Of a stretch of 59,069 nt of DNA, positions 10,633 to 36,581 are shown in pieces. Position 1 is the first letter of the stretch. Every line of letters begins with the position of its first letter. Source of the stretch: Betaproteobacteria bacterium (GTDB lineage: Bacteria > Pseudomonadota > Gammaproteobacteria > Burkholderiales > Casimicrobiaceae). Under the pieces are notes generated by a model. It did not search any database and was not told the origin of the DNA. It saw only the letters and a list, made by a program, of their open reading frames with translations. A program made the position numbers and the translations under genes. Location: assembly GCA_029884335.1 (NCBI GenBank), contig JAOUIA010000019.1, positions 1-59,069 on the forward strand. The letters are read 5' to 3'.

Positions 10633-11607
10633 TCACCGCAGGAGCACTGCCGTGAGCAACAACCCGACCATCACGAACGCGAACAACACGAAGTAGGTGA
10701 TCGCGACGACCCAGGACCGCGCGAGCAGCGCGACCCAGTGCCCGCCGTAGACGACGCGCAACGACCACAGCGCGTAGGCGAGACACCACAGCGCCAGCGC
10801 GCCGCGCAGCGGCGCCCACGGCACGACGACCATCAACGTGACGGCGAGAAAGAGGAACGCGTGGTTGTGCGCGGCGAAGACGAGGTGCTCGGCGTACAGG
10901 CGCGGCCGCTGCGGCGCGCGGCGCGAACGCCGGTGAACGACCATCAGCAGGAACGCGAACGCGGGCAGCAGCGCGAACATCGCGTACGGGCCGTAGCGCA
11001 GCACGCCGAGCACCGTCTGCTCGAGGCGTTCCTGTCGCGGCAGGGCGTTGAAGCGCGCGATGCGTTCCTCCAGCGCCTTCGCCACTGCGCCGGCACCATC
11101 CACGTGCAGTTCCCCCTTGTCGTCAAAGTGCAACGTGACCCCCGGCAGCAGGACCGGGCCCGCCGTGTCCGTCCTGGTCGTGGTCCTGGACTCCGCCTGC
11201 AAGGCCGCCTGGTCGCGAGGCACCGCGTCCTTCTCCGACTTGGGCGGGGCGGAGGCCCTGTCGACGGTGATGGCGCCGTCGAGCCGCGGCAGGTCGACGA
11301 CCAAACGAATCGTGGCGAACACGAGCAGCGACAGCACGAGGAAGAGACGCGCCGGCCGCACGTAGCGCCGCCGCCTGCCGGCGAGATACTCGAGCGTCAG
11401 GAAGCCGGGGCGGAAGAAGAGCGCGAAGAGCGTGCGCCACAGCCGCCCGTCGAGCGCGACGTAGCGACCCGCGGCATCCTTGAGGAACTGCCTCGCCGGG
11501 GGCAGCGCGGCGGTCTCCTGGCCGCAGCGGGGGCAGTAGGCGTCGCCGGCCGGCGCGCCGCAGTTGCGGCACGACGCCGCAGCCGGCTCAAGGGCGGCGT
11601 CCGCCAC
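10633..11607 (-). CDS. DUF3667-like membrane protein with N-terminal zinc ribbon
   Basis: 324 aa from a GTG start that overlaps the trmJ 3' end by 20 bases. The N-terminus is a zinc ribbon (CRNCGAPAGDAYCPRCG, about 11-27), followed by the FLKDAAGRYVALDGRLWRTL segment seen in DUF3667 proteins, a first membrane helix (LFLVLSLLVFATIRLVV), a hydrophilic loop, and four more helices in the C-terminal half. Function unknown; likely inner membrane. The overlap suggests co-transcription with trmJ. The DUF assignment is by recollection of pattern. Confidence 0.7.
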   Translation of the reverse strand: MADAALEPAAASCRNCGAPAGDAYCPRCGQETAALPPARQFLKDAAGRYVALDGRLWRTLFALFFRPGFLTLEYLAGRRRRYVRPARLFLVLSLLVFATIRLVVDLPRLDGAITVDRASAPPKSEKDAVPRDQAALQAESRTTTRTDTAGPVLLPGVTLHFDDKGELHVDGAGAVAKALEERIARFNALPRQERLEQTVLGVLRYGPYAMFALLPAFAFLLMVVHRRSRRAPQRPRLYAEHLVFAAHNHAFLFLAVTLMVVVPWAPLRGALALWCLAYALWSLRVVYGGHWVALLARSWVVAITYFVLFAFVMVGLLLTAVLLR

Positions 11608-12352
11608 CGGCGATCTCGTCGATGCGCGCGAGGATGCCGCGCAGGATGTTGACCTCCTCGCGCTCGAAACCGGCGCGCGCGAACATTCGCCGCAGCCGCG
11701 GCAGCAGGCGGCGCGGCAGCTTCGGGTCGAGGAAGCGCACGTCGGTGAGCGTGCGGGTCGCGTGCGCGTACAGCCCCTCGATCTCGTCGTGGGTGGCGGC
11801 CGCGAAGCGCGGCGCGCGCCACACTTCGCCGCCCGTCGCCGCCACGCGCAGCTCGTAGGCCGCGACCTGCACGGCCGCGGCGAGGTTGAGCGACGAGTAG
11901 CCGGGGTTGGCGGGGATCGTCGCCACGACGCCGCAGCGCGACAGCTCGTCGTTGGACAGCCCCGACATCTCGGTGCCGAACACGAACGCGACGTCGTCGC
12001 GCTGCGCGCGCCCGATCGCCTGCTGCGCCGCGTCGCGCACGTCGAGCACGCGCCCGGCGAACTCGCGCGGCCGCGCCGACAGCCCGACGGTGAGCGCGGC
12101 GCCGGCAAGCGCCTCGTCCAGCGTCCCGACGACGACGGCGTCGCGCAGCACCGCAGTGGCGCCGGAGGCGCGCGCATCGGCTTCCGGGTCCGGGAATCGG
12201 CGCGGCGCGACGAGCACCAGGCGCGCGAGGCCCATCGTGAGCATCGCGCGCGCCGCGGCGCCGACGTTGCCCGGGTGGCTCGTGGCCACGAGCACGATGC
12301 GCACGCGGGCGAGCGCGGCTTCGGCAGGCGGGCGGTCGGGAGAAGTGCGCAT
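11588..12352 (-). CDS. trmJ: tRNA (cytidine/uridine-32 2'-O)-methyltransferase TrmJ
   Basis: SPOUT-superfamily enzyme that methylates ribose at position 32 of tRNAs. 254 aa from the ATG giving MRTSPDRPPAEAAL. Motifs: VATSHPGNVGAAARAMLTMG (motif 1), FGTEMSGLSNDEL (motif 2) and PGYSSLNLAAAVQVAAYE (motif 3, knot). A C-terminal helical extension (IEGLYAHATRTL onward) is typical of TrmJ. It is divergent from suhB as in many proteobacteria. Confidence 0.92.
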   Translation of the reverse strand: MRTSPDRPPAEAALARVRIVLVATSHPGNVGAAARAMLTMGLARLVLVAPRRFPDPEADARASGATAVLRDAVVVGTLDEALAGAALTVGLSARPREFAGRVLDVRDAAQQAIGRAQRDDVAFVFGTEMSGLSNDELSRCGVVATIPANPGYSSLNLAAAVQVAAYELRVAATGGEVWRAPRFAAATHDEIEGLYAHATRTLTDVRFLDPKLPRRLLPRLRRMFARAGFEREEVNILRGILARIDEIAGGGRRP

Positions 12353-12408: not shown

Positions 12409-13245
12409 ATGCACCCGATGCTCACGACGGCCGTCAAGGCGGCCCGCCGCGCCGGCACGATCATCAACCGCGGCGCGCGCGACCTCGACCTCCTCACCGT
12501 CAGCGCGAAGGGGCCGAAGGACTTCGTGAGCGAGGTCGACCACGCGGCAGAGGCCGCGATCGTCGAGACGCTGCACGCGACCTACCCCGACCACGCGATC
12601 CTCGCCGAGGAAGGCACGGCGAGGGACAAGAACGCGCAGGCCGAGTTCGTCTGGATCATCGACCCGCTCGACGGCACCACGAACTTCCTGCACGGCTTCC
12701 CGCAGTACTGCGTGTCGATCGCGCTCGCGCACCGCGGCGTGGTCACGCAGGGCGTCATCTACGACCCGGTGCGCAACGACCTCTTCACAGCGTCGCGCGG
12801 CCGCGGTGCGTTCCTCAACGACCGCCGCATCCGCGTGTCGAAGCGCCAGCACCTGCGCGAATGCCTGATCGGCACCGGCTTCCCGTTCCGCGACGGCAGC
12901 TACCTCGAGACCTACCTCGCGATGATGCGGCGGATGATCCAGAACACCGCCGGCATCCGCCGCCCGGGGGCGGCGGCGCTCGACCTCGCCTACGTCGCCG
13001 CCGGCTTCTACGACGGCTTCTGGGAGGTCGGCCTCAACCCGTGGGACGTCGCCGCCGGCAGCCTGCTGGTGCTCGAGGCCGGGGGTCTCGTCGGCAACCT
13101 CACCGGCGACGGCGACTACCTCTGGTCGGGCCAGGTGATCGCGGCCAATCCGAAGATCTTCGCCCAGATCGTGAAGGAACTCGGCCCGTTCCACGGCGAT
13201 CTCTCCCGCGACCTCGCTGCCAAGGCGCAGGAGGCCAAGGAGTAG
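12409..13245 (+). CDS. suhB: Inositol-1-monophosphatase family protein SuhB
   Basis: Mg2+-dependent phosphatase of the IMPase family; bacterial SuhB also takes part in rRNA antitermination. 278 aa. Metal and substrate motifs: EEG (AEEGTA, about 66-71), [15 protein letters not shown] (about 83-97) and the C-terminal [24 protein letters not shown]. The start [16 protein letters not shown] is standard for the family. Confidence 0.94.
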
Positions 13246-13275
13246 ACGGCCCCCCCAGCCCGGCGCTGGCGGAAT

Positions 13276-13291
13276 TGGTACCCGAATTGCT
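13276..13291 (+). promoter_or_regulatory. Candidate sigma54 (-24/-12) promoter
   Basis: TGGTAC at 13276-13281 and TTGCT at 13287-13291 reproduce the sigma54 pattern TGGCAC-N5-TTGCW with the exact GG-to-GC spacing and one change in the -24 hexamer. A transcript would start near 13302, about 39 bases before the protease ATG, with GAGGAG (13328-13333) as RBS. No activator site was recognised. Confidence 0.5.
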
Positions 13292-13340
13292 TTCCTGGCG
13301 GGGATTCGGCGCGTTTTCCGCCGCCGCGAGGAGTTTCCCC

Positions 13341-15515
13341 ATGTTCCGAGCCCCGACCGCGCATCGCAGCGCCGCGGCCCAGCGCCGACTCAAACCCGTG
13401 CTCGCGGCCGCGCTGGCGGCCCTGTTCATGCCATGGGCGGCCTCGGCCGCCCCCCTTGCCGGCAGCGAGCAGGCGCCGACGCTGCGCGTCATGCTAAACC
13501 CTGCCACGGCACTCCCCGGCAGCCTGCCGGAGGACGCGAAGGCGCGCCTGGAGGCGCTGGCCGGCGGCCCGCTCGTCCTCGAGGCGACCACCCGGACGGG
13601 TGCGTTCGAGTTCTCGGCGGGCGACGGCGCGGACCTCGCCGTCATGGCCGGCCGCTTGCGTGGCGACCGCAGCGTACTGTGGGCGGAGGCGGCGCCGCGG
13701 CAAGCACGCGCGAAGTCGACGCGCTCCTCGCTCGCCGACGCGGCGCCCGCCCGCAAGCTCCTCGTGCGCCTGCACGACGACGCCGACCCCGTCGCGGCGG
13801 CAGCGCGACTCGGCGCCTTGGCCGGCGCCCCGGTCGCGCTCGAGCGCACGATCGGCAACGTGCGCGTGATGGCGCTCGCGGAGTCGCGCACCGCGGGCGA
13901 GATGGAAGACCTCGCGCGCGCTTTCGAGGCGGACGTTGCGGTGCGCTACGCGGACCCGGTTCGCCGCGTCATGGCGCACGCCGGCCCCGTTCCCAACGAC
14001 CCGTTCTACGCGCAGCAATGGGCGCTCGCGAACATCCGCGCCTCCGACGCGTGGGCGCTGGGCACCGGCAGCGCCGCGATGACGGTCGCCGTCGTCGACA
14101 CGGGCATGCTCGCGCACCCGGACCTCGCCGGTCGCGTGCTGCCCGGCTACGACTTCATCTCGGATCCCGACACGGCGCGCGACGGCAACGGGCGCGACCC
14201 CGACGCGCGCGACGAGGGCGACTGGCTCGCCGACGGTGACTGCGGCGGCCAGCGCGCGCAGGACTCGTTCTTCCACGGGCTCTTCGTCGCCGGCCTGATC
14301 GCCGCGAACGGCAACAACGGCACGGGCATGGCGGGCGTGGACTGGGCGGCGAAGATCCTCCCGGTGCGCACGCTGGGCAAGTGCGGCGGCACGTTCGAGG
14401 ACGTGCTCGCCGGCGTGCACTGGGCGGCGGGCCTGCCGATCGCCGGCGTGCCGGCGAACCCGCACCCGGCGAAGGTCATCAATCTCAGCCTCGGCGGCCC
14501 CGGCGCGTGCATCGCCGCGATCCAGGAGGCGATCGACGACGCGCTGGCGCAGGGCACGGTGATCGTCGCCAGCGCCGGCAACGAGAGCGAGGAGGCGGCG
14601 AACTTCTCGCCGGGCAACTGCAGCGGCGTGATCAACGTCGCGGCGCTGGCGCGCAGCGGCGAGCGGGCGAGCTACTCGAACTACGGCTCCCGCGTCGATC
14701 TCGCCGCACCGGGAGGCGACTTCGACGCCGGCGGCGGCATCCTGTCGACGCACGACAGCGGCAGGACGACTCCTGCGGGCCCGAGCTACGCGCTTGCGAT
14801 GGGCACGAGCTTCTCCGCGCCGCTGGTGTCGGGCACGGTGTCGCTCATGCTCGCGCGCAACCCCAACCTCACCGCGGGGCGCGTGCTGTCGATCCTGCAG
14901 GGCACGTCCGCCGAGTTACCCCCCGGCTCGACGTGCTCGTACGGTTTCTGCGGTGCCGGCGCGCTCGACGCCGGTTCCGCGATCGCGAGCACCGTCCCGG
15001 CATCGGTCAACCTGCCTCCGGGCGCGGTGGCGGTCGTCGAGTTCTACGACGCCGCGGCCGACCACTACTTCGTCAGCGCCGACGCCGACGAGATCGCGCA
15101 GTACGACGCCAGCGGCCGCTGGCAGCGCACCGGCCACGTGTTCTACGGCTGGGGCCACCCCGCTTTCGCACCCCCAGGCGTCGATCCGCGCAACGTCTGC
15201 CGCTTCTACGCGGGGCCGGAAGTGCAGGTCGACTCGCACTACCTCACCGCCGACCCGGCGATCTGCGCGTTCGTGATCGCGAACGACCAGGGCATGTGGA
15301 CGCTGCAGACGCACGAGGCGTTCTGGATCGAGGTGCCCGACGCGGCCGGCGGCTGCCGCAGCGGCACGGTGCCGGTCTACGCGTTCTTCAACAACCGCCG
15401 CGACGCGAACCAGCGCTTCACGATCGACGGCTCGGTGAAGCGCGCGATGCGCAACCGCGTGTGGGTGCCGGACGGCACCGTGCGCGACGGCGTCGCGTTC
15501 TGCTCGCTGATCTGA
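13341..15515 (+). CDS. Secreted subtilisin-like serine protease (S8 family) with C-terminal domain
   Basis: 724-aa exported protease. Signal peptide about 1-36 (hydrophobic run, then AASA-AP). A prodomain-like region (about 40-210) precedes the catalytic domain: Asp253 in VAVVDTGM, His312 in FFHGLFVAG, oxyanion region SAGNES, and Ser490 in GTSFSAP. The His motif reads HGLFVAG instead of the usual HGTHVAG but the catalytic His is kept. A C-terminal domain (about 560-724) has repeated aromatic VVEFYDAAADHYFVSADADE / YAFFNNRRDANQRFTI motifs like DUF5648-type beta modules. Single gene, possibly sigma54-dependent. Confidence 0.9.
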   Translation: MFRAPTAHRSAAAQRRLKPVLAAALAALFMPWAASAAPLAGSEQAPTLRVMLNPATALPGSLPEDAKARLEALAGGPLVLEATTRTGAFEFSAGDGADLAVMAGRLRGDRSVLWAEAAPRQARAKSTRSSLADAAPARKLLVRLHDDADPVAAAARLGALAGAPVALERTIGNVRVMALAESRTAGEMEDLARAFEADVAVRYADPVRRVMAHAGPVPNDPFYAQQWALANIRASDAWALGTGSAAMTVAVVDTGMLAHPDLAGRVLPGYDFISDPDTARDGNGRDPDARDEGDWLADGDCGGQRAQDSFFHGLFVAGLIAANGNNGTGMAGVDWAAKILPVRTLGKCGGTFEDVLAGVHWAAGLPIAGVPANPHPAKVINLSLGGPGACIAAIQEAIDDALAQGTVIVASAGNESEEAANFSPGNCSGVINVAALARSGERASYSNYGSRVDLAAPGGDFDAGGGILSTHDSGRTTPAGPSYALAMGTSFSAPLVSGTVSLMLARNPNLTAGRVLSILQGTSAELPPGSTCSYGFCGAGALDAGSAIASTVPASVNLPPGAVAVVEFYDAAADHYFVSADADEIAQYDASGRWQRTGHVFYGWGHPAFAPPGVDPRNVCRFYAGPEVQVDSHYLTADPAICAFVIANDQGMWTLQTHEAFWIEVPDAAGGCRSGTVPVYAFFNNRRDANQRFTIDGSVKRAMRNRVWVPDGTVRDGVAFCSLI

Positions 15516-16832: not shown

Positions 16833-17894
16833 CTACTCGGAACTGCGCCGCGACAGCGCGGCGCCGGAGACCGTCGACCACTCGTTGGCCAGCGCGTAGC
16901 CGAGCGCCAGCAGCACGGGGCCGATGAACACGCCGATGAGGCCGAACGCGGCGATGCCGCCGAGCACGCCGAGCAGCACCAGGATGAACGGCAGGTGGCT
17001 GCCTTGGCTGATGATGAGCGGCTTCAGCACGTTGTCGATCGTCGACACGACGAAGAAGCCCCAGGCGAGCACGAACAGTCCCCAGCCCACGCTGCCCCTC
17101 TGGATCAGCCAGATGCCCGCGCTCGCCCACACGATCGGCGGGCCGATCGGCACGGGGGAGAGCACCAGCGTCGCGAAGCCGAGCATCAGCCAGCCGGGGA
17201 CGCTGGCGAGCCAGAAGCCGAACGCGGCGAGCGAGCCCTGCGCCAGCGCGGTGCCGAGGATGCCCAGGACGACGCCGCGCACAGTCAGCGTTGCCGTGGT
17301 CAGCAGCCGGCGGCCGCGCTCGGCGGCGAGCCGGGTCATGCCGACGTCGATGTGCCGCGCGATCGCCGCGCCGTCGCGGAACAGGAAGTAGGCGATCAGG
17401 ATCGACATGGACAGTTGCACCAGCGCGCCGACGACGTTCACGCCGCTGGCGATCGCCAGGCGCTGCAGCGGCTCGACGAAGCGGCCGATCTCGCGCATCA
17501 GCGCGGCCGTGTCGTGCGCCACGGACTTCCAGTAGGCGGAAGCCTGCTCGCCCACGAGCGGAATCGCCGCCACCCAAGCCGGCGGGTCGGGGACGTTGTC
17601 GAGCGCCCGCCGCAGCCACACCATCGCGCGCGGGCCGTTCGCCGCGACCTGCTCCGTGACGATTGCGAATGGCACCAGGACGAGCAGCGAGATCAGCGTG
17701 ACCATGACGAGCGCCGCCAGGCCCGGCTTCACCCGGCGGCGCAGCGCGTGGTTCATCGGCCACAGCGTGACCACGAGGATCACCGCCCATAGCAGACCGG
17801 TGAGGAACGGCCGCAGGACCAGATAGCAGCCGACGATGATCAGGGCGAGCCCGGCGAGCGCGAGCGTCTGGTCTATGCGTTCGGAGGGCTGCAT
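16833..17894 (-). CDS. AI-2E family (PerM/YdiK-like) permease
   Basis: 353 aa, about 8 membrane segments, starting MQPSERIDQTLAL. The family signature is the C-terminal block FFVVSTIDNVLKPLIISQG followed by LPFILVLLGVLGGIAAFGLIGVFIGPV. The central hydrophilic region (about 85-150) is typical. Family members include AI-2 exporters and ion or organic-anion permeases; the substrate here is unknown. Confidence 0.88.
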   Translation of the reverse strand: MQPSERIDQTLALAGLALIIVGCYLVLRPFLTGLLWAVILVVTLWPMNHALRRRVKPGLAALVMVTLISLLVLVPFAIVTEQVAANGPRAMVWLRRALDNVPDPPAWVAAIPLVGEQASAYWKSVAHDTAALMREIGRFVEPLQRLAIASGVNVVGALVQLSMSILIAYFLFRDGAAIARHIDVGMTRLAAERGRRLLTTATLTVRGVVLGILGTALAQGSLAAFGFWLASVPGWLMLGFATLVLSPVPIGPPIVWASAGIWLIQRGSVGWGLFVLAWGFFVVSTIDNVLKPLIISQGSHLPFILVLLGVLGGIAAFGLIGVFIGPVLLALGYALANEWSTVSGAALSRRSSE

Positions 17895-17976
17895 GCGGAC
17901 CCGGGAAGATGGGGTGGCGCAGTCTAGCATCGGCCGCCGCCCGGAGCAGCGCCGGCGTCCGGGCGGCGGCCGGGGC

Positions 17977-19572
17977 TCAGGGCTTGGCAGCGACGGCGTC
18001 GGGTCGCGTGCCGGCCAGCAGCAACTCTACCGCGACGCGCAGGTCGGCCATCTCGTTGCGATGCGAGGCCCGCAGTTCGGCGATCTCGCGCGTCAACGCC
18101 TCGGTGCTCGATCGAAGCGCCGCGATCTCGGCGTCCTTCGCGTTGACTTCCGCTCGCAGCGTCGCCTCGCGCTCCTCCAGCTTCGCGTTCAGCCCCTGGA
18201 TGGCTGCAAGCGCCACGCCGTCGGCGTCCACGGTGCCGATGCCCTTGTCGCCGTCGCCCAGCCCGAACGCAGCCTTGAAGTCCTGCGCCGTCGGACCGAT
18301 GTGCTCCACCCCCGGACCATCCTGGCGGTAGTGCCAGCGCGCGATGGGCAGCGCGACCACGGCGTCGAGCACCGATCGCGCGTCGATCGGCTCGAACCCC
18401 GCCTTCAGCGACCGGTCCGAGGCGTTCGTCCACACGCCTGCGTTGGAGAGAAACGCCCCCGTCCACGTGGCGATCGTCTGGCCGGCGGAGAGATCGCCCA
18501 CGTACACCCAGCGCGTGCCGCCGCCGTCGGCGCGCCGGCTGAAGTAGTCGACGGCAAGGCCGTGGTCCAGGATGAAGCGGGCGATGTGCGGCGTGCCCAG
18601 GCAGGACCCGCTGCCATCGTCGGACCAGTTGACGAACGTGAAGCATCCATCCTGATCGGCTTGGCTTCTCGCTCCTGCCGCGAAGCTGCGGGCCCCCGTG
18701 GCAGTGTTGTGGTTCCCACCGGCGACGGTGCTAAATGTCCCGCTCGCGGCGTTGCTGTCCCCGCCGGCCACGGTGCTCCCACTGCCGCTCGCCACGTTGA
18801 ACGTCCCCCCGGCGACCGTGCTGTCGCCGCCGCTCGCGGTGTTGCTGCCCCCGCCGCCGACGGTCCCGTAGTAACCGCTCGCCGTGTTGGTGTCTCCCCC
18901 GGCAACGGTGCCGAACGTGCCGCTCGCGGTGTTGAACGCGCCGCCGGCGACGGTCGCGAATGCCCTGTCGCCGGCGGATCCGGCGGCATCGCCCGCCTGA
19001 TTGCGATAGCCGCCGCCCACCGTTCCGTAGTGATCGGTCACCAGGTTGGGCCCCTCACCGCCGAAGTCCGGATCGTCCTCGCCGCTGGCCACCCCGCCGC
19101 CGCCGATCGTCGCGCCGCGCACTCCCGTCGCCACGCTGTTCGCGGCACTCCCGCCGATCAAATTGGGGCTGATCGCGTTCGGTTCGTAGCGCATCGCACG
19201 CACCGCGTTGACCCTCACGTCCAGCGCATTGCCGTCGGTGGTGCCGAGCACAGCGGTGTTGTTCTGGAGGGATCCGAACGCGTTGCCGCCCTCGGCAAAC
19301 ACGGTGTCCACACCCAGGCGACTCATGAACGCGGCCATCTGCTTGCGTGTCACCAGGCCATCCGGACAGTAGAGACGGTTGTTCGCGTCGATGATCTGGC
19401 AGCCTGTCGTAACTCCGGTTGCCGCCATCCACGTGATGTAGCCGCAGAAGGAATCGCTGGCGGGAACGTCGGTGAAGACGTAGGGCGCGACACCGGGACA
19501 GAACTGCGCCCGGGCGTGGCCGGACAGCGTAGCGACGACGGCAACTGCGGCAAGCAGCAACGCTCTGCGCAT
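17977..19572 (-). CDS. Secreted SLH-like / YadA-repeat / S74 chaperone fibre protein
   Basis: 531 aa. Signal peptide 1-23 (ends HARAQ). Residues about 24-90 form an SLH-like domain with four Cys (FTDVPASDSFCGYITWMAA, TTGCQ, YCPDG-VTRKQMAAFMSRL). About 140-310 consists of roughly 14-residue repeats of GGxxNTASGxxxTV type, the beta-roll of trimeric adhesin heads. The region starting DRSLKAGFEPIDARSVLDAV (about 395) matches peptidase S74 intramolecular chaperones, with the AFGLGDGDKGIGTVDADG segment; a coiled coil (about 470-520) follows. S74 domains trimerise and then cleave themselves off. No phage genes surround it. A frameshifted paralogue lies at 54611-56973. Confidence 0.82.
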   Translation of the reverse strand: MRRALLLAAVAVVATLSGHARAQFCPGVAPYVFTDVPASDSFCGYITWMAATGVTTGCQIIDANNRLYCPDGLVTRKQMAAFMSRLGVDTVFAEGGNAFGSLQNNTAVLGTTDGNALDVRVNAVRAMRYEPNAISPNLIGGSAANSVATGVRGATIGGGGVASGEDDPDFGGEGPNLVTDHYGTVGGGYRNQAGDAAGSAGDRAFATVAGGAFNTASGTFGTVAGGDTNTASGYYGTVGGGGSNTASGGDSTVAGGTFNVASGSGSTVAGGDSNAASGTFSTVAGGNHNTATGARSFAAGARSQADQDGCFTFVNWSDDGSGSCLGTPHIARFILDHGLAVDYFSRRADGGGTRWVYVGDLSAGQTIATWTGAFLSNAGVWTNASDRSLKAGFEPIDARSVLDAVVALPIARWHYRQDGPGVEHIGPTAQDFKAAFGLGDGDKGIGTVDADGVALAAIQGLNAKLEEREATLRAEVNAKDAEIAALRSSTEALTREIAELRASHRNEMADLRVAVELLLAGTRPDAVAAKP

Positions 19573-19962
19573 GGCGATCTCCCGTGATACGGCGGTCCTG
19601 GCGTGGCCCGATGCCCCTTCCGGCGACAGGCATGGCATCGTTGCCTCGGTGGCGCGGTTTTCCTTGGAGGTCCCGCACACCGGCAGCTCGACCACCGCCC
19701 CCGGCGCCTGCTCGACGCCAGCACGTTGCGAGCGCTTCCCGGGTTCTGCTGCCCGAAGCCCGGAAGCGCCCGCGCGGCGGGCTGCAGCGCAAGCAGGGTT
19801 CCCGTCCGCCCCGTCGGCCCGTCGCGCCGCAGCCGTCGGAGTCCGAGCATTCCAAGCCCTTGCTCCCTGAACCCGATTGATTGCGGTCAAGTTTGCAGCG
19901 CCAACTCCTCCGGCGCAGCCGGCTTCGCAGGCGCGTCCAAGGGAGCGCACGGCAAGTAGAAA
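19573..19962. other. Non-coding leader between the fibre gene and the tRNA terminator
   Basis: About 390 bases without a convincing gene; short frames on both strands have no recognisable motif. The only features seen are a GGGAGA RBS-like run just before the minus-strand ATG at 19572 and the FNR-type palindrome at 19877-19890. Confidence 0.5.
19877..19890. promoter_or_regulatory. FNR/Anr-type palindrome
   Basis: TTGAT-TGCG-GTCAA differs from the FNR/Anr consensus TTGAT-N4-ATCAA by a single base. On the minus strand it reads TTGACCGCAATCAA and lies about 305 bases upstream of the fibre gene start. No clear -10 was found at a fixed distance, so its role in oxygen control of that gene is speculative. 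Confidence 0.35.
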
Positions 19963-19981
19963 GCCCCGCGTCGCGCGGGGC
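19963..19981 (-). terminator. Terminator after tRNA-Ser
   Basis: Eight-base perfect GC stem (19963-19970 with 19974-19981) with a three-base loop; on the minus strand it is followed by TTTCT. It lies about 47 bases past the tRNA 3' end and matches a Rho-independent terminator. Confidence 0.7.
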
Positions 19982-20027
19982 CCTGTGTGCCTTCCTCGCC
20001 TGCGGAACAGGGCGGAAGGGCTCGAAC

Positions 20028-20115
20028 TGGCGGAGAGAGAGGGATTCGAACCCCCGTTACCTTGCGGTAAACCTGATTTCGAGTCAGGCGCCTTCGACCA
20101 CTCGGCCATCTCTCC
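20028..20115 (-). tRNA. tRNA-Ser (anticodon CGA)
   Basis: Class II tRNA on the minus strand starting GGAGAGATGGCCGAGTGG. The anticodon stem-loop CCTGA-CTCGAAA-TCAGG gives anticodon CGA, decoding UCG. A long variable arm (TTACC-GCA-AGGTAA) identifies a serine tRNA. The T-arm contains GTTCGAATC, and the acceptor TCTCTCC pairs with GGAGAGA. The 3' GCCA is encoded (20031-20028). TATAAT lies 11 bases upstream. Confidence 0.96.
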
Positions 20116-20125
20116 GGAGCGGCGG

Positions 20126-20131
20126 ATTATA
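20126..20131 (-). promoter_or_regulatory. -10 box of tRNA-Ser
   Basis: Perfect TATAAT on the minus strand, ending 11 bases before the mature tRNA 5' end. No good -35 is visible at 16-18 bases upstream. Confidence 0.5.
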
Positions 20132-20180
20132 GCGCCCCGGAGCCGTTCCCCGCCGCTGCGCGTGCGCGGACCGGAAACGA

Positions 20181-20206
20181 CGAAGGGCGGGTTGCCCCGC
20201 CCTTCG
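20181..20206 (-). terminator. Terminator of the formate dehydrogenase cluster
   Basis: Eleven-base perfect stem (20181-20191 with 20196-20206), four-base loop, about 25 bases after the last gene of the cluster; on the minus strand it is followed by TCGTTTCC. The weak T-run makes it a moderate intrinsic terminator. Confidence 0.65.
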
Positions 20207-20230
20207 ATCCAACTGCTTCGTGCCGACCGG

Positions 20231-20575
20231 CTACTTCTTCGCGGGCGCCGCAGGCGCAGCCTTCGCCGGTGCGGCAGCGGCGGTCTTCGCCGCCGCGGCT
20301 GCCTGCGCCGCGGGCGTGGCGGGCCCCATCTGCGGCGTGGGCACCGGCTTGCCGGCGGCCTTCAGCTCCGCCTGGTAGCGAGCGACGGCGCGATCCTCCG
20401 CGCGCGCCTGCGCGGCCTTCGCGGCCTCGGCGGCGACGGCGTCCTTGGCCTTCTTCTCCTCGGCGGCCTGCTTCTGGGCTTCGGTCAACGGCGGCGGCGG
20501 CGGCAGCTTCGCCACCGCGACGCCGAATGTCGCGACGACGAGCCCGGCGGCGACGAGTGCGCGGACGTTCTTCAT
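20231..20575 (-). CDS. Small exported Ala/Pro/Lys-rich protein of the fdh cluster
   Basis: 114 aa, no recognised family. A signal peptide (MKNVRALVAAGLVVATFGVAVA, about 1-22) is followed by a PPPPP run, a charged helix (about 31-73, LTEAQKQAAEEKKAKDAVAA) and an Ala/Pro/Lys tail. It lies 41 bases after fdhC and just before the terminator, so it belongs to the same transcript. A periplasmic spacer or assembly helper is possible but not shown. Confidence 0.7.
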   Translation of the reverse strand: MKNVRALVAAGLVVATFGVAVAKLPPPPPLTEAQKQAAEEKKAKDAVAAEAAKAAQARAEDRAVARYQAELKAAGKPVPTPQMGPATPAAQAAAAAKTAAAAPAKAAPAAPAKK

Positions 20576-20616
20576 GGTGCCCTTCCTCTCCTCCCGATGT
20601 CTCTGCGTGCCGCCCT

Positions 20617-21669
20617 TCAGGCGGGGCGGTGCTGGACGCCCGCCGGCGCCGGCGGCTCGCTGCCGCGCGGCACCTTGCCGGCCATCACGTCGTTGTACCA
20701 GTACTCGTGGTGCTCCTTCGCCCACTGCTCGTCGACGTAGCCGTAGCGCATGGCCTCGAGGGCGCCCTGCATGCCGACCGTGCCGAGATAGATGTGGAAG
20801 CACGCCATCGCGGTCGCGATGAGCCCCACGATCATGTGGATCAGGTTCATCGTCTGCATCGTGGCGCGCGTCTGGTCGAAGTTCGGGAAGTTGAGGACCA
20901 GCCCCGTGACGACCAGCACGATCGACAGCACGACCACCAGGATCCAGAACAGCGCCTTTTCGCCGGCGTTGAACTTGCCCGACGCCACGTGCGTCTTGCC
21001 CGAGCGATCGAGCATGCCGCCGAACTTGGCGAGCCACTGCGCGTCGTGGCCGCGCGGGATGTTGTCCTTGATGAAGAGGACGATGAACACCAGCAGCGCG
21101 ACCGCGAACACGGGGCCGAGGAAGTTGTGCAGGCTCTTGCTCAGCGTGGCGAGCCACGAGAAGAGCGTGTAGCCGATGAGCGGCAGCAGAATCGACTTGC
21201 CGAACGTGACGACGAGCCCGGTGACGCCCAGCACCGCGAACGAGATGCCCATCGCCCAGTGCGCCATCCGCTTGGCAGGCGTGAAGCGCTCGATCTGCCG
21301 TCCGGTCGGCGTGCCGTGCAGCCCGATCGGCCCGCGCCAGGCGTAGTAGCCCATCAGCGCCAGCAGGACGAGCGCGAGCAGCGCGCCGCCCGCCGTGGCG
21401 ATCGGCACGCGCAGCGCGCGCCAGGTCTGCCCCTCGGGCTGGATCAGGACGTTCGTCTCGCGCCCGGGCAGGCTGGTCGTCTGCGGGACGCCGGAGCGCA
21501 CCTCCTTCCAGACAGGCGAGTTGTTGCCCGGTTGCGCCAGCTGGCGCTGCTGCTGCTCCTTCGCGAGGTCGGCCGGGGCGGGCGCCGTGGAGGGCTGCGC
21601 GAGGGCCGGCAGGGCCACGCAGGCCGCGAGCGCGATGGCGCCGGCGGCCCGGAGGATGGTGCTGCGCAT
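20617..21669 (-). CDS. fdhC: Formate dehydrogenase gamma subunit (cytochrome b)
   Basis: Membrane di-heme cytochrome b that passes electrons from the Fe-S subunit to quinone. 350 aa with a signal peptide (ends ALPALAQ, about 25), a periplasmic stretch of about 80 residues, then membrane helices. Likely heme ligands: MAHWAMGISF, KSLHNFLG and HMIVGLIATAMACFHIYLG. The conserved RFTPAKRMAHW opening of the FdhC family is present. It follows the small lipoprotein gene by 17 bases. Confidence 0.9.
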   Translation of the reverse strand: MRSTILRAAGAIALAACVALPALAQPSTAPAPADLAKEQQQRQLAQPGNNSPVWKEVRSGVPQTTSLPGRETNVLIQPEGQTWRALRVPIATAGGALLALVLLALMGYYAWRGPIGLHGTPTGRQIERFTPAKRMAHWAMGISFAVLGVTGLVVTFGKSILLPLIGYTLFSWLATLSKSLHNFLGPVFAVALLVFIVLFIKDNIPRGHDAQWLAKFGGMLDRSGKTHVASGKFNAGEKALFWILVVVLSIVLVVTGLVLNFPNFDQTRATMQTMNLIHMIVGLIATAMACFHIYLGTVGMQGALEAMRYGYVDEQWAKEHHEYWYNDVMAGKVPRGSEPPAPAGVQHRPA

Positions 21670-21686
21670 GGAGGTTCCTTCGCGGG

Positions 21687-21908
21687 TCAGGAGGCGCGCT
21701 TGTACTCGTTCTGCGACTGCATGCGCGTGCGGATCGCCTGCTCCCACTGCTCCTTGTTGCCGTTGTACGGCGGGTTCGACCAGGGCTGCGTGTCGGGCTT
21801 GCCCTGATACGTCCCCTGCTTGTAGGTAACGACCTGCGGGCGCTCGCCGCAGGCCGCAAGGCCGGCGACGAAGGCGACCGCGAGGGATGCCGCGAGGAGC
21901 TTCCTCAT
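21687..21908 (-). CDS. Small lipoprotein between fdh beta and gamma genes
   Basis: 73 aa. The signal sequence ends in a lipobox-like AGLAAC-G (Cys about residue 20). The mature part is short and polar (VVTYKQGTYQGKPDTQPW, then NPPYNGNKEQWEQAI). The ATG overlaps the beta-subunit stop by four bases (21905-21908), so it is translated with it. A membrane-anchored accessory of the dehydrogenase complex is a reasonable guess. Confidence 0.75.
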   Translation of the reverse strand: MRKLLAASLAVAFVAGLAACGERPQVVTYKQGTYQGKPDTQPWSNPPYNGNKEQWEQAIRTRMQSQNEYKRAS

Positions 21909-22549
21909 GACTTCTGGCCTCCCGGTTGCTGCGCCGGAGCGGCCGGCGCCTGGCCCTTGCCGGGCGCGGGCCCGTAGGCCGTCGCCCAGCCCCACACTTC
22001 GCCGCCGCGGCCGCGGACGGTGACGCGCTCGCGATAGATGTCGGCGAGGACGTCGCCGTCGCCGCCGAGCAGCGCCTTCGTCGCGCACATCTCCGCGCAG
22101 GCCGGCAGCTTGCCCTCCGCAAGGCGGTTGCGTCCGTACTTCTTGAACTCGGCCTCCGAGCGGTCGGCTTCCGGCCCGCCGGCGCAGAACGTGCACTTGT
22201 CCATCTTGCCGCGCTGGCCGAACGCGCCGGCCTGCGGGAACTGCGGCGCGCCGAACGGGCACGCGTAGAAGCAGTAGCCGCAGCCGATGCACAGGTCCTT
22301 GTCGTGCAGGACCACGCCGTCCTCGGTCTTGTAGAAGCAGTCGACCGGGCAGACCGCCGCGCAAGGCGCGTCGGAGCAGTGCATGCACGCGACCGAGATC
22401 GAGCGCTCGCCGGGCACGCCGTCGTTGATGGTGACCACCCGGCGGCGGTTCACGCCCCACGGGATCTCGTGCTCCTGCTTGCACGCGGTGACGCAGCCGT
22501 TGCACTCGATGCAACGTTCGGCGTCGCACAGGAACTTCATTCGTGCCAT
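21905..22549 (-). CDS. fdhB: Formate dehydrogenase beta subunit (four-cluster ferredoxin)
   Basis: 214 aa Fe-S subunit that carries electrons from the molybdopterin subunit to the cytochrome. Cys motifs: CIECNGCVTACK, CMHCSDAPCAAVCP, CIGCGYCFYACP and a split fourth set CTFC / CAEMC, giving four [4Fe-4S] sites. No signal peptide of its own, consistent with Tat hitch-hiking on the alpha subunit. It follows fdhA by 19 bases. Confidence 0.92.
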   Translation of the reverse strand: MARMKFLCDAERCIECNGCVTACKQEHEIPWGVNRRRVVTINDGVPGERSISVACMHCSDAPCAAVCPVDCFYKTEDGVVLHDKDLCIGCGYCFYACPFGAPQFPQAGAFGQRGKMDKCTFCAGGPEADRSEAEFKKYGRNRLAEGKLPACAEMCATKALLGGDGDVLADIYRERVTVRGRGGEVWGWATAYGPAPGKGQAPAAPAQQPGGQKS

Positions 22550-22568
22550 GGTCTTCTCCTCCCTGTGC

Positions 22569-25469
22569 CTACGCCGTGACCCTGGCGACCTGGCAGACGG
22601 TCGTCTTGGTCTCCTGCATCATCGTGACCGAGTCGTACCCGTACGTCGTGGCCGTGTTGGCCGCCTCGCCGCGCACGATCGGCGCCGAGCCCTGCGGGTA
22701 GAACTCGAGCATGTCCTTGCCCTGCCACCAGCCGGAGAAGTGGTAGGGCATGAACGTCGTGCCCGAACCGACGCGCTCCGTGACCATCGCCTTGACCTTG
22801 AGCTGCGCGCCCGTCGGCGTCTTCACCCACACCATCTCGCCGTCGCGGATGCCGCGGTCGTTGGCGTCGCGCGGGTTGATCTCGACGAACATGTTCTGCT
22901 GCAGCTCGGCGAGCCACGGGTTGCTGCGCGTCTCCTCGCCGCCGCCCTCGTACTCGACCAGCCGGCCGGAGGTCAGGATCAGGGGGAACTCCTTGACCAC
23001 GTCCTTGTTCTTGTCCTGCACCGTCTTGTAGAGCGTGGGCAGGCGCCAGAACGCCATCTTGTCCGCGTGCGTCGGGTACTTCGCGACCATGTCCGGCCGC
23101 GTCGAATACAGCGGCTCGCGGTGCTGCGGGATCGGGTCGGGGAAGTTCCACACGACCGCGCGCGCCTTGGCGTTGCCGAACGGGTGGTTGCCGTGGTTCT
23201 TCATGAACACCCGCATCATCCCGCCGGAGAGGTCGGTCTTCCAGTTCTTGCCCTCGGCGGCCTTCTTCTCGGCTTCGGTCAGCTCGTCCCACCAGCCCAG
23301 CTTCTTGAGCAGCACGTGGTCGAGCTCGGGGTAGCCGCCGGTGAGATCGCCGCCCTTCGGGAAGCTGCCGTCTCCGGCCAGCAGGCTGGCGCCGTCGCGC
23401 TCGACGCCGAAGTTGGCGCGGAAGCAGCCGCCGCCCTGCATCACCGGCACCGACGGGTCGTAGAGGTTCGGCGAGCCCGGGTGCTTGAGCTCGGCGGTGC
23501 CGTAGCACGGCCACGGCAGGCCGAAGTAGTCGCCGTCGGCCGGTCCGCCCTTCGCGCGCAGCGTCTTCACGTCGAAGGTGTTCATGTGCTTCATGTGCAG
23601 CTTGAGCCGCTCGGGCGACTGGCCGGTGTAGCCGATCGTCCACACGCCGCGGTTGATCTCGCGCAGCACGTCCTCGGGCACCGGCTCGTCGAACTTGTTC
23701 GCGTCGGGCTTCTGCGTCTTGACGCTGCCGAGGAACTCCTTCTCGAAGCCGAGCTTGCGGGCGAAGGCGAGCATGATCGCGTGGTCGGTCTGCGACTCGA
23801 ACAGCGGGCTGATCACGCGCTCGCGCCACTGGATCGAGCGGTTCGACGCCGTGGCCGATCCGGAGGTCTCGAACTGCGTGGCCGCGGGCAGCAGGTACAT
23901 GCCGTCCTTGCGGACCATCGCGCCCATCGCCGCCGTCGCCGACGGGTACGGGTCGATGACCACGAGCAGGTCGAGCTTCTTCATCGCCTCGACCATCTCC
24001 TTGCCGCGCGTCTGGCTGTTCGGCGCGTGGCCCCAGTACACGACCGCCCGCAGGTTGCTGTCCTGGTCGATCAGCTCGTTCTTCTCGAGCACGCCGTCGA
24101 TCCAGCGCGACAGCGTCATGCCGGGCTTCTCCATCATCGCCTGGGACGCGAACTGCTTCTTCAGCCACTCGTAGTCGACGCCCCAGACCGTGGCGAAGTG
24201 GCGCCACGAGCCGGCCGCGATGCCGTAGTAGCCGGGCAGCGAGTCGGGGTTCGGGCCGACGTCGGTGGCGCCCTGCACGTTGTCGTGGCCGCGGAAGATG
24301 TTCGCGCCGCCGCCCGAGCGGCCGATGTTGCCCAGCGCCAGCTGCAGGATGCAGGAGGCGCGCACCATCGCGTTGCCGATCGTGTGCTGCGTCTGGCCCA
24401 TGCACCAGACGATCGTCGACGGCTTGTTCTTCGCCATCATCTCGGCGACCTTGGCCATCTGCGCCTCGGGCACGCCGCAGGCTTCCTCCACCGCCGCCGG
24501 CGTCCACTTCGCGAGGACCTCCTCGCGCACCTTCTCCATGCCGTAGACGCGGTCGTTGATGTACTGCTTGTCTTCCCAACCGTTCTTGAAGATGTGGTGC
24601 AGGACGCCGAACAGGAACGGGATGTCGGACCCGGAGCGGATGCGCACGTACTCGTCGGCCTTCGCCGCGGTGCGCGTGAACCGCGGGTCGACGACGATCA
24701 TCTTCGCGCCGGTCTCCTTGGCATGCAGCATGTGCAGCATCGACACCGGGTGCGCCTCGGCGGCGTTCGACCCGATGTAGAGCGCGCACTTCGCGTTCTG
24801 CATGTCGTTGTAGGAGTTCGTCATCGCGCCGTAGCCCCAGGTGTTGGCTACGCCGGCGACGGTCGTCGAGTGGCAGATGCGCGCCTGGTGGTCCATGTTG
24901 TTCGTGCCGAACATCGACACGAACTTGCGCAGCAGGTACGCCTGCTCGTTGTTGTGCTTGGAGCTGCCGAGCCAGAACGTCGCGTCGGGCCCCGACTCCT
25001 TGCGGATCGCGGCGAGCTTGTCGCCGACCTCGCCGATCGCCTGCTCCCACGAGATCTTCGTCCACTTGCCGCCGACCAGCTTCATCGGCGACTTCAGGCG
25101 GTGCTCGCCGTGGCCGTGCTCGCGGACCGACGCGCCCTTGGCGCAGTGCGCGCCGAGGTTGAGCGGCGAGTCGAACACCGGCTCCTGGCGCACCCACACG
25201 CCGTTCTGCACGACCGCGTCGATCGCGCAGCCTACCGAGCAGTGCGTGCACACGGTGCGCGCGACCGTCTGCGGGCCGTCGGCCGCGCCTTCCTTGGCCG
25301 CCTCGGCCTTGCCGATCGTGCCGTAGGGCAGCTGCGTGGCGATGGCGCCCGCGCCGGCGACGAGTCCCGAGCGCTTGAGGAACGTGCGACGGTCGATCGC
25401 GGAGGGCGTGCCCGCGCGGCGCGCGAGGCGCGCACGGGAGGGAGTGACTTCGGCTTTGCGCGTCAGCAT
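22569..25469 (-). CDS. fdhA: Formate dehydrogenase alpha subunit, molybdopterin, Tat-exported
   Basis: 966-aa catalytic subunit oxidising formate to CO2 in the periplasm. Twin-arginine signal (DRRTFLKRSGLVAG, about 26-39). [4Fe-4S] ligands CTHCSVGC and the distal Cys of GAHCAKG (about 74-112). The Mo ligand is Cys199 in RICHSTTVAG, not selenocysteine, followed by the catalytic His200. Further bis-MGD contacts are spread through the protein, with a C-terminal MopB domain (GEMVWVKTPTGAQLKVKA). It follows the Tat-target peptide by 11 bases. Confidence 0.95.
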   Translation of the reverse strand: MLTRKAEVTPSRARLARRAGTPSAIDRRTFLKRSGLVAGAGAIATQLPYGTIGKAEAAKEGAADGPQTVARTVCTHCSVGCAIDAVVQNGVWVRQEPVFDSPLNLGAHCAKGASVREHGHGEHRLKSPMKLVGGKWTKISWEQAIGEVGDKLAAIRKESGPDATFWLGSSKHNNEQAYLLRKFVSMFGTNNMDHQARICHSTTVAGVANTWGYGAMTNSYNDMQNAKCALYIGSNAAEAHPVSMLHMLHAKETGAKMIVVDPRFTRTAAKADEYVRIRSGSDIPFLFGVLHHIFKNGWEDKQYINDRVYGMEKVREEVLAKWTPAAVEEACGVPEAQMAKVAEMMAKNKPSTIVWCMGQTQHTIGNAMVRASCILQLALGNIGRSGGGANIFRGHDNVQGATDVGPNPDSLPGYYGIAAGSWRHFATVWGVDYEWLKKQFASQAMMEKPGMTLSRWIDGVLEKNELIDQDSNLRAVVYWGHAPNSQTRGKEMVEAMKKLDLLVVIDPYPSATAAMGAMVRKDGMYLLPAATQFETSGSATASNRSIQWRERVISPLFESQTDHAIMLAFARKLGFEKEFLGSVKTQKPDANKFDEPVPEDVLREINRGVWTIGYTGQSPERLKLHMKHMNTFDVKTLRAKGGPADGDYFGLPWPCYGTAELKHPGSPNLYDPSVPVMQGGGCFRANFGVERDGASLLAGDGSFPKGGDLTGGYPELDHVLLKKLGWWDELTEAEKKAAEGKNWKTDLSGGMMRVFMKNHGNHPFGNAKARAVVWNFPDPIPQHREPLYSTRPDMVAKYPTHADKMAFWRLPTLYKTVQDKNKDVVKEFPLILTSGRLVEYEGGGEETRSNPWLAELQQNMFVEINPRDANDRGIRDGEMVWVKTPTGAQLKVKAMVTERVGSGTTFMPYHFSGWWQGKDMLEFYPQGSAPIVRGEAANTATTYGYDSVTMMQETKTTVCQVARVTA

Positions 25470-25480
25470 GGTGCCTCCGG

Positions 25481-25732
25481 TCAGATGCGCGTCGACGCGT
25501 AGTAGGTGCGGACGTGGTCCGTCGCGTGGTAGCCACGCTTCGCGTCGTCCGCCTGCGGTGCGGCGGCCTGGGCGAGCGGCGCGGCGACGGCCTGCGTTGC
25601 AGCGGCGGCGCCCGCGGCGGAACCCGCGCCGAGCGCCAGCAGGAAGCGGCGTCGCTTCGGGTCCGCATGCTGGGAAGGGCTGGCCGACGGCGCTGTCGGC
25701 AGGTGAGCGTCACGCTGCGACGTTGGGCGCAT
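25481..25732 (-). CDS. Formate dehydrogenase region Tat-target protein
   Basis: 83 aa. It matches the small family found next to FdhA genes: a twin-arginine motif (PKRRRFLLALGAGSAAG, about 25-41) and the conserved C-terminus YHATDHVRTYYAST. Its exact role is unknown; it is thought to accompany export or assembly. RBS-like GGAGG lies just before the ATG. It precedes fdhA by 11 bases. Confidence 0.87.
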   Translation of the reverse strand: MRPTSQRDAHLPTAPSASPSQHADPKRRRFLLALGAGSAAGAAAATQAVAAPLAQAAAPQADDAKRGYHATDHVRTYYASTRI

Positions 25733-25746
25733 GCGATCCTCCGAAA

Positions 25747-25776
25747 ATGTAGCAGTTCGTGACGTTTCGGCTACAT
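25747..25776. promoter_or_regulatory. Inverted repeat before the fdh Tat-target gene
   Basis: Seven-base arms ATGTAGC (25747-25753) and GCTACAT (25770-25776) separated by 16 bases. It lies between the TorD-like stop, which it overlaps, and the next start. It could be an operator for internal transcription of fdhXABC or a weak RNA hairpin. Confidence 0.35.
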
Positions 25777-26391
25777 GGCGAGCGAGTCACGTTCGACCGC
25801 CATAAATGTGTGGGTGAATTGTGCTACCCGCAGGTAGAAGTTGGCAAGCGGAGACGCCGTTATTGCGTTGCAGCAATCGTCGATCCACGGCGCGAGATTC
25901 CTCTCGAAAAACCCTGCTTGCGTCGCGAGATCCTTCGGCGGGCCGTGCTCGCCCCCTTCGATCAGCGCCCGCATGGCCTCGAACAGGGCCGCGGCGTGGT
26001 CCTCCAGCAGCGTGCTGCGGGGCTGCCGGCCCAGCCCCAGCCCGGCCAGCTCGTCGCGCAGCGCCACCAGCGGCTTTTCCATCATGAAGCCGGACAGCCA
26101 GTGGGACGCGTGCAGGTTGACCTCGCTGCGCCCGGTGCCGACGAAGAGGTCGACGTACTCCTGCCGTGCCGCCTCGGCGTCCATCGCCTGGCAGGCGGCG
26201 AGGAGCGTATTCCACGCTGCTGGAAGCGTGCCCGACTCCGCTTCGGGGAGCGGCTCCGCCGCGGCGATCGCTCGCAGGAGCGCGGGATCGGGCGCGTCGG
26301 CGTAGAGCGCCGCCAGCACGGCGTAGAAATTGGCGCGCGCCCGGTCCTCGGGATCGACGCGGTGGACGACGCGGATCGGGGCCGGCTCCAT
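25771..26391 (-). CDS. TorD/DMSO-reductase-type chaperone for FdhA
   Basis: 206 aa, all-helical TorD-like protein; these bind the Tat signal and apo form of molybdoenzymes until the cofactor is inserted. Recognisable features: RANFYAVLAALYADAPD near the N-terminus, the QEYVDLFVGTGRSEVNLHAS motif region (about 85-105) and the C-terminal WIDDCCNAI. The ATG at 26391 is chosen; a GTG at 26400 would overlap the polyferredoxin stop as GTGA and is an alternative. Confidence 0.85.
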   Translation of the reverse strand: MEPAPIRVVHRVDPEDRARANFYAVLAALYADAPDPALLRAIAAAEPLPEAESGTLPAAWNTLLAACQAMDAEAARQEYVDLFVGTGRSEVNLHASHWLSGFMMEKPLVALRDELAGLGLGRQPRSTLLEDHAAALFEAMRALIEGGEHGPPKDLATQAGFFERNLAPWIDDCCNAITASPLANFYLRVAQFTHTFMAVERDSLAM

Positions 26392-26396
26392 CGGCG

Positions 26397-29083: not shown

Positions 29084-29085
29084 CG

Positions 29086-29601: not shown

Positions 29602-29700
29602 GGCTTTGATGCGCGCGATGCGCGCCGACGAACGCCCGCGCGCATGGTACACCGGCACCAGACCCCTCTGATAACATTCGCGACCTGTGGCGCTACGAGC
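29602..29700. promoter_or_regulatory. Divergent control region, fdh cluster / moaA
   Basis: The 99 bases between the two divergent starts must hold both promoters. TGATAACAT (around 29670) is a candidate -10 for moaA; TGTACCATG on the minus strand is a weak candidate for the fdh cluster. No FNR, NarL or ModE site was recognised. Confidence 0.4.
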
Positions 29701-30813: not shown

Positions 30814-30912
30814 CGCCGTGGAGGGGATGCAGTGATCCGAGGCACAGCGCCTGGGACACCTCCACCCCACAAGCGTCTCGACGCCGCGTTCACTTTCCTC
30901 TGCCGTCTGTCT

Positions 30913-31753: not shown

Positions 31754-31754
31754 C

Positions 31755-32786: not shown

Positions 32787-32841
32787 TGACCCTCACTTCG
32801 AGCACGCGCAGTATCGACGCTCCCGCCGGACCGCGATCGCC

Positions 32842-36574: not shown

Positions 36575-36581
36575 GCGCCCG

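Follow-up and report, generated by a model that had tools for sequence, protein, structure and literature searches.

Organization of the fibre gene

The analysed stretch of DNA, referred to below as the window, is a contig of 59,069 nucleotides (JAOUIA010000019.1, assembly GCA_029884335.1) from a betaproteobacterium of the family Casimicrobiaceae. It carries, on the reverse strand at positions 17977-19572 (stop codon included), a gene for a protein of 531 amino acids, which appears to be a secreted fibre with an SLH-like head near its N-terminus and a Peptidase_S74 chaperone near its C-terminus. The reading frame was confirmed. A Sec-type signal peptide was recognized by eye in residues 1-22 (MRRALLLAAVAVVATLSGHARA; 19507-19572), and a putative ribosome-binding site, GGGAGA, was placed by eye upstream of the gene, at 19578-19583. 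The signal peptide is followed by the Cys-rich head, a conserved neck, a beta-roll, an exchangeable tip module, the S74 domain and a long helix, all encoded on the same strand. The order of parts given, with coordinates, in a preliminary description of this DNA was borne out by translation and Pfam.

The S74 chaperone and its predicted self-cleavage

The intramolecular chaperone comprises residues 385-446 (18235-18420), as delimited by Pfam and alignment. The Peptidase_S74 match itself covers residues 385-436 with 38.1 bits (cut-off 22), and the catalytic motif SDxxxK is present as SDRSLK with an intact dyad, S385/K390, in agreement with the earlier proposal of a secreted fibre with an S74 chaperone. 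The domain is placed C-terminally and is followed by a long helix (residues 447-519; 18016-18234), which was modelled with block values of the predicted local distance difference test (pLDDT) of 83-95 and is predicted to form a trimeric coiled coil.

Without exception, S385, R387 and K390 are conserved in two overlapping sets of aligned fibres (13 of 13 and 27 of 27). An S74 profile was made from the 13-fibre set; it was built on dyad-bearing fibres and may favour such sequences. With this profile, rows outside the viral set have Ser and Lys at the dyad places in 140 of 141 cases. The same holds for 107 of the 108 distinct S74 sequences outside that set, a count that includes the viral-collection locus L133 and in which cut copies of one gene may count twice (L024/L039, seen once); the remaining sequence has Cys. 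Among the 10 distinct sequences of the viral set, 8 have Ser and 2 have Cys at the catalytic place. Loci with Cys for the catalytic Ser (C-D-x-x-x-K) were L064, L140, L142 and L143, one of them cellular and three from the viral set.

In the Bdellovibrio protein Bd3182, the SDxxxK motif is reported to cut its own chain, and the S782A substitution to block the cut (PMC10769870). For MyRF, S587/K592 are described as equivalent to S911/K916 of endoNF (PMC8326128). By analogy with cleavage at Ser as described in these two sources, the SDxxxK alignment places the predicted self-cleavage point of the window protein at A384/S385 (18418-18423). Since the S74 domain has an intact dyad, we infer with good reason that the fibre trimerises and cleaves itself.

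The beta-roll, neck and tip

Residues 205-300 (18673-18960) form a UspA1/YadA-like beta-roll, identified by Pfam, a PDB match, the structural model and self-identity. The UspA1_rep family was matched with 34.8 bits (cut-off 27), and among solved structures the nearest in sequence is that of the UspA1 head (PDB 3pr7, E 3.7e-28). The roll has a period of 15 residues, with a lag-15 self-identity of 0.60 that was reached by none of 10,000 shuffles; the 14-residue repeat proposed at first was off by one. Neither Pfam YadA_head nor YadA_anchor was matched in the fibre protein at E up to 1, the C-terminus consisting of the S74 domain and the helix. Of the three families named in the preliminary description, S74 scored over its cut-off, SLH remained below its own and YadA_head gave no match, so that the YadA-type roll stands as a UspA1-like roll and not as a Pfam YadA_head. 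The roll also bears a weak likeness to ice-binding beta-rolls of plants (LbR_Ice_bind, 23.3 bits with a cut-off of 30; PDB 3ult, 5.9e-8).

A single-chain AlphaFold2 model was calculated from the window protein and 26 relatives (alignment A2). Its overall mean pLDDT was 69 and its predicted template modelling score 0.43. In the roll, strands follow one another at intervals of about 15 residues, and the roll, the S74 region and helix 447-519 were modelled with high confidence, most other parts poorly. A Foldseek search of the PDB ranked the S74-type domain of MyRF (7dc3) highest, its three chains taking the first three places (probability 0.98-1.00; 1.00 and E 0.44 for the top entry), a match that at E 0.44-0.61 represents agreement rather than proof. 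A trimerising role of the C-terminal helix is predicted by analogy with MyRF.

Comparison with relatives delimited a conserved neck (residues 89-204; 18961-19308) with the pattern GGNAFG...LGTTD...SPNLIGG...GATIGGGG. The exchangeable tip module, delimited through its module-wise relatives, comprises residues 301-384 (18421-18672) and would become the distal end of the fibre upon cleavage.

The Cys-rich SLH-like head

The head occupies residues 24-88 (19309-19503) and was recognized by Pfam and by a head profile. A profile of 15 heads (alignment A3) matches the solved SLH proteins SbsB (5.4e-7) and Sap (1.9e-4), these E-values being whole-chain sums over weak SLH stretches of which no single one passes alone. 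Gly29, Arg43 and Trp13 are described as ligand-contact residues in the SLH domains of SpaA (PMC6081394). By eye, SLH-Gly29 corresponds to G57, invariant in 15 of 15 aligned heads, and SLH-Arg43 to R76, invariant in all 29 distinct heads; heads without the small insertion of the window protein keep the Gly29-Arg43 spacing. A short congener protein with the same head (L047) passes the SLH cut-off with 26.9 bits, and a paralogue in the window's genome (G000:C118) scored 21.7 bits for SLH in the genome search. A protein in the array on contig G000:C36 has three SLH domains and lies well over the cut-off (78.2 bits). Judged from its sequence, the head is a borderline case: a divergent SLH domain that by the Pfam cut-off is only SLH-like. 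The fibre has one such domain per chain and would present three only as a trimer; other proteins of the window's genome carry three in tandem.

The four cysteines first described in the head are present, at residues 25, 43, 58 and 69, and two more (310 and 324) lie in the tip module. Among the loci compared, 26 of 29 distinct heads keep all four; C3 and C4 are lost together in one head, C1 and C2 together in another, and one head is cut by a contig end. Because the cysteines are lost in pairs, the simplest reading is that of two disulphides within each head (C25-C43 and C58-C69). Cross-linking of the fibre through these residues, as suggested earlier, is not favoured by the pairwise losses. 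The SLH parts of five three-SLH proteins have the third/fourth Cys pair only; the exception is L201, with an additional Cys in its last SLH domain.

SLH heads and a CsaB-like pyruvyltransferase across genomes

The head profile (E up to 1e-8) gave 25 matches in the window's genome (G000), 54 in the congener G015, and none in the other 62 of the 64 genomes of the family. A CsaB search (TIGR03609) of the same 64 genomes gave matches at 6.2e-47 and 2.5e-43 in exactly the two head-carrying genomes, a weak match in G035 (5.9e-9) and none in the remaining 61 at 1e-5. Presence of the CsaB-like enzyme in 2 of 2 head carriers versus 0 of 62 other genomes corresponds to a Fisher p of 5e-4, the carriers being congeners of doubtful independence. 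The broader family PF04230 was found in 5 of the 64 genomes, over its cut-off in the window's genome and more weakly in three others (5.2e-13 to 5.7e-7); it is unspecific, matching 8 of 14 named control genomes. Among these controls, which served to check the searches, the same four scored over the cut-off for both SLH and CsaB. In phylum samples comprising 299 genomes, heads were found in G000 and G124, and CsaB-like enzymes (at 1e-30) in G000 and G325; G124 has two PF04230 enzymes and one S74 protein.

In both head-carrying genomes, the gene for the CsaB-like enzyme shares a contig with the largest SLH array. On G000:C36, the array lies at 18434-27635 and the enzyme gene at 35663-36604, and on G015:C18 these are found at 23712-36654 and 11280-12230, respectively. 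Glycosyltransferases and a Wzt_C-type ABC exporter accompany the enzyme in both genomes, and the membrane partner of the exporter was seen in G000 only (10 frames tested). Wzt_C ABC exporters are the kind used for O-antigen-type polysaccharides. The proposal that the SLH-like head serves as an anchor gains support from the distribution of the heads, the CsaB-like match, the arrangement of these loci and the profile matches to solved SLH proteins.

The arrays (L197 on G000:C36 and L200 on G015:C18) contain short proteins in which a single SLH head is joined to a domain that looks beta-rich, and which often end near ...NRNG..SPF or a similar sequence (by eye). Of three such short single-head proteins (L034, L045 and L047), two had no Pfam match at 0.01 and one had SLH only; they possibly represent an undescribed secreted family. 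Larger proteins were also seen. A frame of 942 residues in the array (L197:7502-10330, forward strand) encodes an M12-type reprolysin-like protease followed by three SLH domains, and in L201 (G015:C27) an open frame of 2769 residues encodes three SLH domains followed by a long body that by eye resembles Rhs/YD repeats.

For an Accumulibacter enrichment, proteins of the outer cell wall are reported to have 32-33% similarity to Bacillota SLH-domain proteins, most of that protein cluster not deriving from Accumulibacter itself (PMC12019908); on the basis of that report, SLH-like proteins have already been noted in such communities. No paper on SLH-headed S74 fibres of the present kind was found in the literature collection searched, which implies nothing beyond that collection.

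Relatives of the fibre and their mosaic build

At least 402 genome-contig stretches encode relatives of the fibre, and 80 loci were kept. Their hosts include Chloroflexota, Planctomycetota, Verrucomicrobiota, Lysobacterales, Wenzhouxiangella, Burkholderiales, a haloarchaeon and others. Within the family of the window's genome, an S74 match (E up to 1e-6) occurs in 18 of 64 genomes. The self-removing S74 domain is most familiar from viruses. Secreted roll/S74 fibres are widespread in bacteria; such fibres have been described before, and bacterial S74 proteins are often annotated as tail fibres. The notion that S74 is unusual outside phages is not supported by these relatives or by the mosaic adhesive trimer (MAT) proteins of Bdellovibrio (PMC10769870). 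Outside the viral set (but with L133 counted in), 102 of the 108 distinct S74 frames contain three or more roll repeats, versus none of the 10 other distinct ones, which are viral.

Text patterns divided the N-terminal heads of the 108 S74 frames into SLH (12), FTYQG-type (37), dockerin-like (3) and Ig-like (2), with no pattern match in 54. All 12 SLH-headed frames lie in loci of G000 or G015, one of them being a cut copy of another. A module-by-module comparison was made within the loci collected. The head is most similar to other proteins of its own genome, namely two with collagen-like bodies (71% and 69% identity) and a second copy in the window (69%), the collagen call resting on Pfam for the second of the collagen-like relatives and on inspection by eye for the first. 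The tip has 63% identity over 70 residues to a fibre from another genus (G034, L052), then 47% to a congener fibre (G021, L030) and 31% to a same-genome paralogue (E 0.011), and no match in the second window copy. S74 identities rank in the opposite order, with 45% for the G034 fibre versus 54% and 64% for fibres of the own genome. These sequence comparisons suggest that the fibres share neck, roll and chaperone, while heads and tips are swapped between them.

The second SLH-head/roll/S74 gene lies on the reverse strand at 54611-56973, and its frame is broken once inside the roll. It has a longer neck and was detected with the S74 profile of 13 fibres and by alignment, having been missed in the Pfam S74 listing. 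The broken frame may reflect a pseudogene, an assembly error or an on/off switch. At another locus of the same genome (L033, G000:C12:11000-14452), two SLH-head proteins with collagen-like bodies are encoded in tandem, the first with a Pfam Collagen match of 1.4e-18 and the second recognized by eye. The occurrence of fibre and collagen-like bodies on the same head suggests trimers.

Genomic neighbourhood

The fibre gene is flanked by a tRNA-Ser gene (20028-20115) on one side and a gene for an AI-2E family transporter (16833-17930) on the other, with formate dehydrogenase genes beyond; a glutathione S-transferase (GST) gene is also among its ordinary neighbours. In a PHROG scan of nine neighbouring frames, no matched family was annotated as structural, and some matches were to families of function unknown. 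The G+C content is 0.713 in the window, 0.694 in the fibre gene and 0.714 in the SLH array L197. Because the fibre gene lies amid ordinary metabolic genes and the G+C values match, assembly contamination is an unlikely explanation of the fibre and SLH genes.

An insertion signature at the adjacent tRNA-Ser was sought in nine congener AI-2E stretches. None of the nine carried the formate dehydrogenase genes of the window, and the comparison was uninformative; in L160 a tRNA-Ser(cga) lies ∼2.8 kb off, and two of the stretches share the S8 protease gene. The window itself contains a large open frame on the forward strand (12861-15515) with a Pfam S8 subtilase domain. The first part of this frame overlaps a tRNA-Pro gene (12924-12999) on the opposite strand, so that its true start is probably further in.

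Proposed mechanism and alternative explanations

Taken together, we regard as moderately probable a trimeric, self-processed surface fibre that is held by three SLH heads on a pyruvylated surface polysaccharide and likely acts as an adhesin; we infer trimerization, cleavage, surface location, ligand and adhesion. The chain would be exported by Sec, and three chains would fold together under the C-terminal S74 chaperone. After roll and tip have assembled into a correct trimer, the chaperone would cut between A384 and S385 and depart with the coiled coil. The mature fibre (residues 23-384) would then consist of three SLH heads, each stapled by the disulphides C25-C43 and C58-C69, the UspA1-like roll as a shaft and the swappable tip at the far end. 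The heads would bind a pyruvylated polysaccharide that the CsaB-like/Wzt locus would produce and export, with adhesion as the likely role.

Several observations weigh against this interpretation. The window head scores 17.5 bits with Pfam SLH, below the cut-off of 20.8, and by hmmscan the head of L055 (18.3 bits) and that of the G000:C118 paralogue (17.5 bits) are also under it; the summed nature of the SbsB and Sap matches points the same way. SLH-Trp13 is replaced by Phe (F42, placed by spacing and by eye), and with a head-only model (helix-loop-helix, pLDDT 63) Foldseek found no SLH structure. Single heads also occur on many short proteins that are not known trimers. The CsaB-like enzymes score 160.6 and 149 bits, below the curated cut-off of 213.1, and CsaB matches below that cut-off (at 1e-5) occur without SLH in the E. 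coli, B. subtilis and Methanosarcina controls. The co-occurrence of SLH heads and CsaB-like enzymes may be one event, the carriers being congeners. In the phylum samples, G124 was not among the CsaB-like matches, nor G325 among the head matches. Finally, no outer-membrane route was identified in the fibre protein by Pfam, YadA_anchor giving no match.

In deep-branching diderms, the SLH parts of OmpM and SlpA probably bind a pyruvylated wall polymer in the periplasm. The window fibre could likewise be periplasmic, its SLH head linking either the fibre itself or the outer membrane to a peptidoglycan-bound, pyruvylated polymer. The reported tethering of the outer membrane to the cell wall by OmpM and SlpA (PMC10628300, PMC9388160) lends this some appeal, as does the absence of a Pfam outer-membrane translocation domain from the fibre protein. 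We nevertheless think it unlikely: the CsaB-like gene stands beside a Wzt_C ABC exporter, a roll with a swappable tip suits a surface adhesin, and MAT fibres are described as located on the surface (PMC10769870). Very slightly less probable is a soluble secreted matrix fibre, or an ice- or mineral-binding one, in which the head would not be an anchor but would serve some other function. The ice-binding likeness of the roll, the scores of single heads under the SLH cut-off and their presence on many short proteins agree with it; however, Gly29 and Arg43 are kept, and within the family the head distribution tracks the CsaB-like locus.

A further alternative, somewhat more doubtful still, concerns the S74 domain, which might act as a trimerising chaperone only and remain uncleaved, with the helix bundle staying at the tip. 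The Cys-for-Ser sequences (1 of 108 and 2 of 10 distinct ones) would fit this, but the Ser-Lys dyad is intact in the window protein and in nearly all distinct relatives, and bacterial Bd3182 is reported to lose self-cleavage when its Ser is replaced (PMC10769870). A prophage-remnant tail fibre, or a part of a contractile injection system, is highly improbable, even though the stretch from residue 183 to 496, which includes the roll, matches the tail fibre family PHROG 1980 (E 1.9e-9). Viral proteins named as S74 or YadA-like head are among the best BFVD matches, 11 of them with E up to 0.001 (best 50 of 271 matches, TM-scores low), L133 carries S74 with 10 roll repeats and matches query residues 109-502, and S74 fibres are reported in injection systems (PMC12923769). 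Against such an origin stand the signal peptide and the ordinary neighbours (formate dehydrogenase, AI-2E transporter, GST). Moreover, among the matches listed (20 of 26 phage records), all fall within query residues 367-496. In the viral collection, 13 of 14 loci have their match confined to 360-490, and, L133 aside, three roll repeats are not reached in any of the 10 distinct S74 frames from viruses. A phage origin of the window copy is therefore not favoured, given the signal peptide, the neighbours and the confinement of these phage matches to the S74 region. The reach of PHROG 1980 into the roll and the BFVD names count against a sharp divide between phage and cellular fibres.

Comparison with known systems and implications

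The window fibre shares a roll of GG-x-x-N-T-A-S-G repeats with the trimeric autotransporter adhesins YadA and UspA1. In contrast to these, it has no YadA_anchor match, and its roll would be fixed N-terminally, with the distal end made by S74 cleavage; the polarity of YadA is opposite to this. With the SLH/CsaB systems of Paenibacillus alvei (SpaA) and Bacillus (Sap), it shares the profile match to Sap/SbsB, the Gly29 and Arg43 residues and a CsaB-like enzyme. It differs from them in carrying a single SLH domain per chain, where they have three in tandem, and in its four cysteines, its Phe for Trp13, its Gram-negative host and an enzyme below the CsaB cut-off. The S74 domain belongs to the same chaperone/protease family, with the same Ser-Lys dyad, as those of phage endosialidases and tailspikes and of eukaryotic MyRF, but here it is part of a secreted bacterial protein with an SLH-like head, which is neither a virion part nor a transcription factor.

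A close parallel, published and functionally tested, is the layout of the Bdellovibrio MAT fibres such as Bd3182, which are reported to be secreted and to have a common N-terminal module and variable distal parts, 13 of the 21 MAT proteins ending in an S74 domain with SDxxxK (PMC10769870). The window protein has this layout of signal peptide (by eye), fibre and C-terminal S74. Compared by description only, the MAT proteins begin with a beta-rich domain of ∼130 residues for which the report gives no PDB homologue (PMC10769870), whereas the window fibre has an SLH-like head of ∼64 residues with four cysteines and a UspA1-like roll as its shaft. The surface partner of the MAT fibres is stated to await identification (PMC10769870). 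What is possibly new here, judging from sequence comparison, is an SLH-like anchor with a possible ligand pathway in a betaproteobacterial genome.

A more specific and more tentative possibility is that a Gram-negative anchor is built by oligomerization, with trimers driven by S74 or collagen-like parts joining single SLH domains into a three-SLH spindle that binds pyruvylated sugars. It is equally tentative that the ligand polysaccharide would be exported by the Wzt-type system, pyruvylated by the CsaB-like enzyme and shared by a whole group of interchangeable surface proteins, the head profile matching 25 and 54 times in the two genomes. The short single-head proteins are a difficulty for such a trimer-built anchor, unless they are trimers as well.

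For a secreted S74 fibre, an anchor can here be named together with a candidate ligand pathway in the same genome. This suggests that SLH/pyruvate anchoring reaches into the betaproteobacteria, and that the three chains of a trimeric fibre may together provide what in S-layer proteins comes from three domains in tandem.

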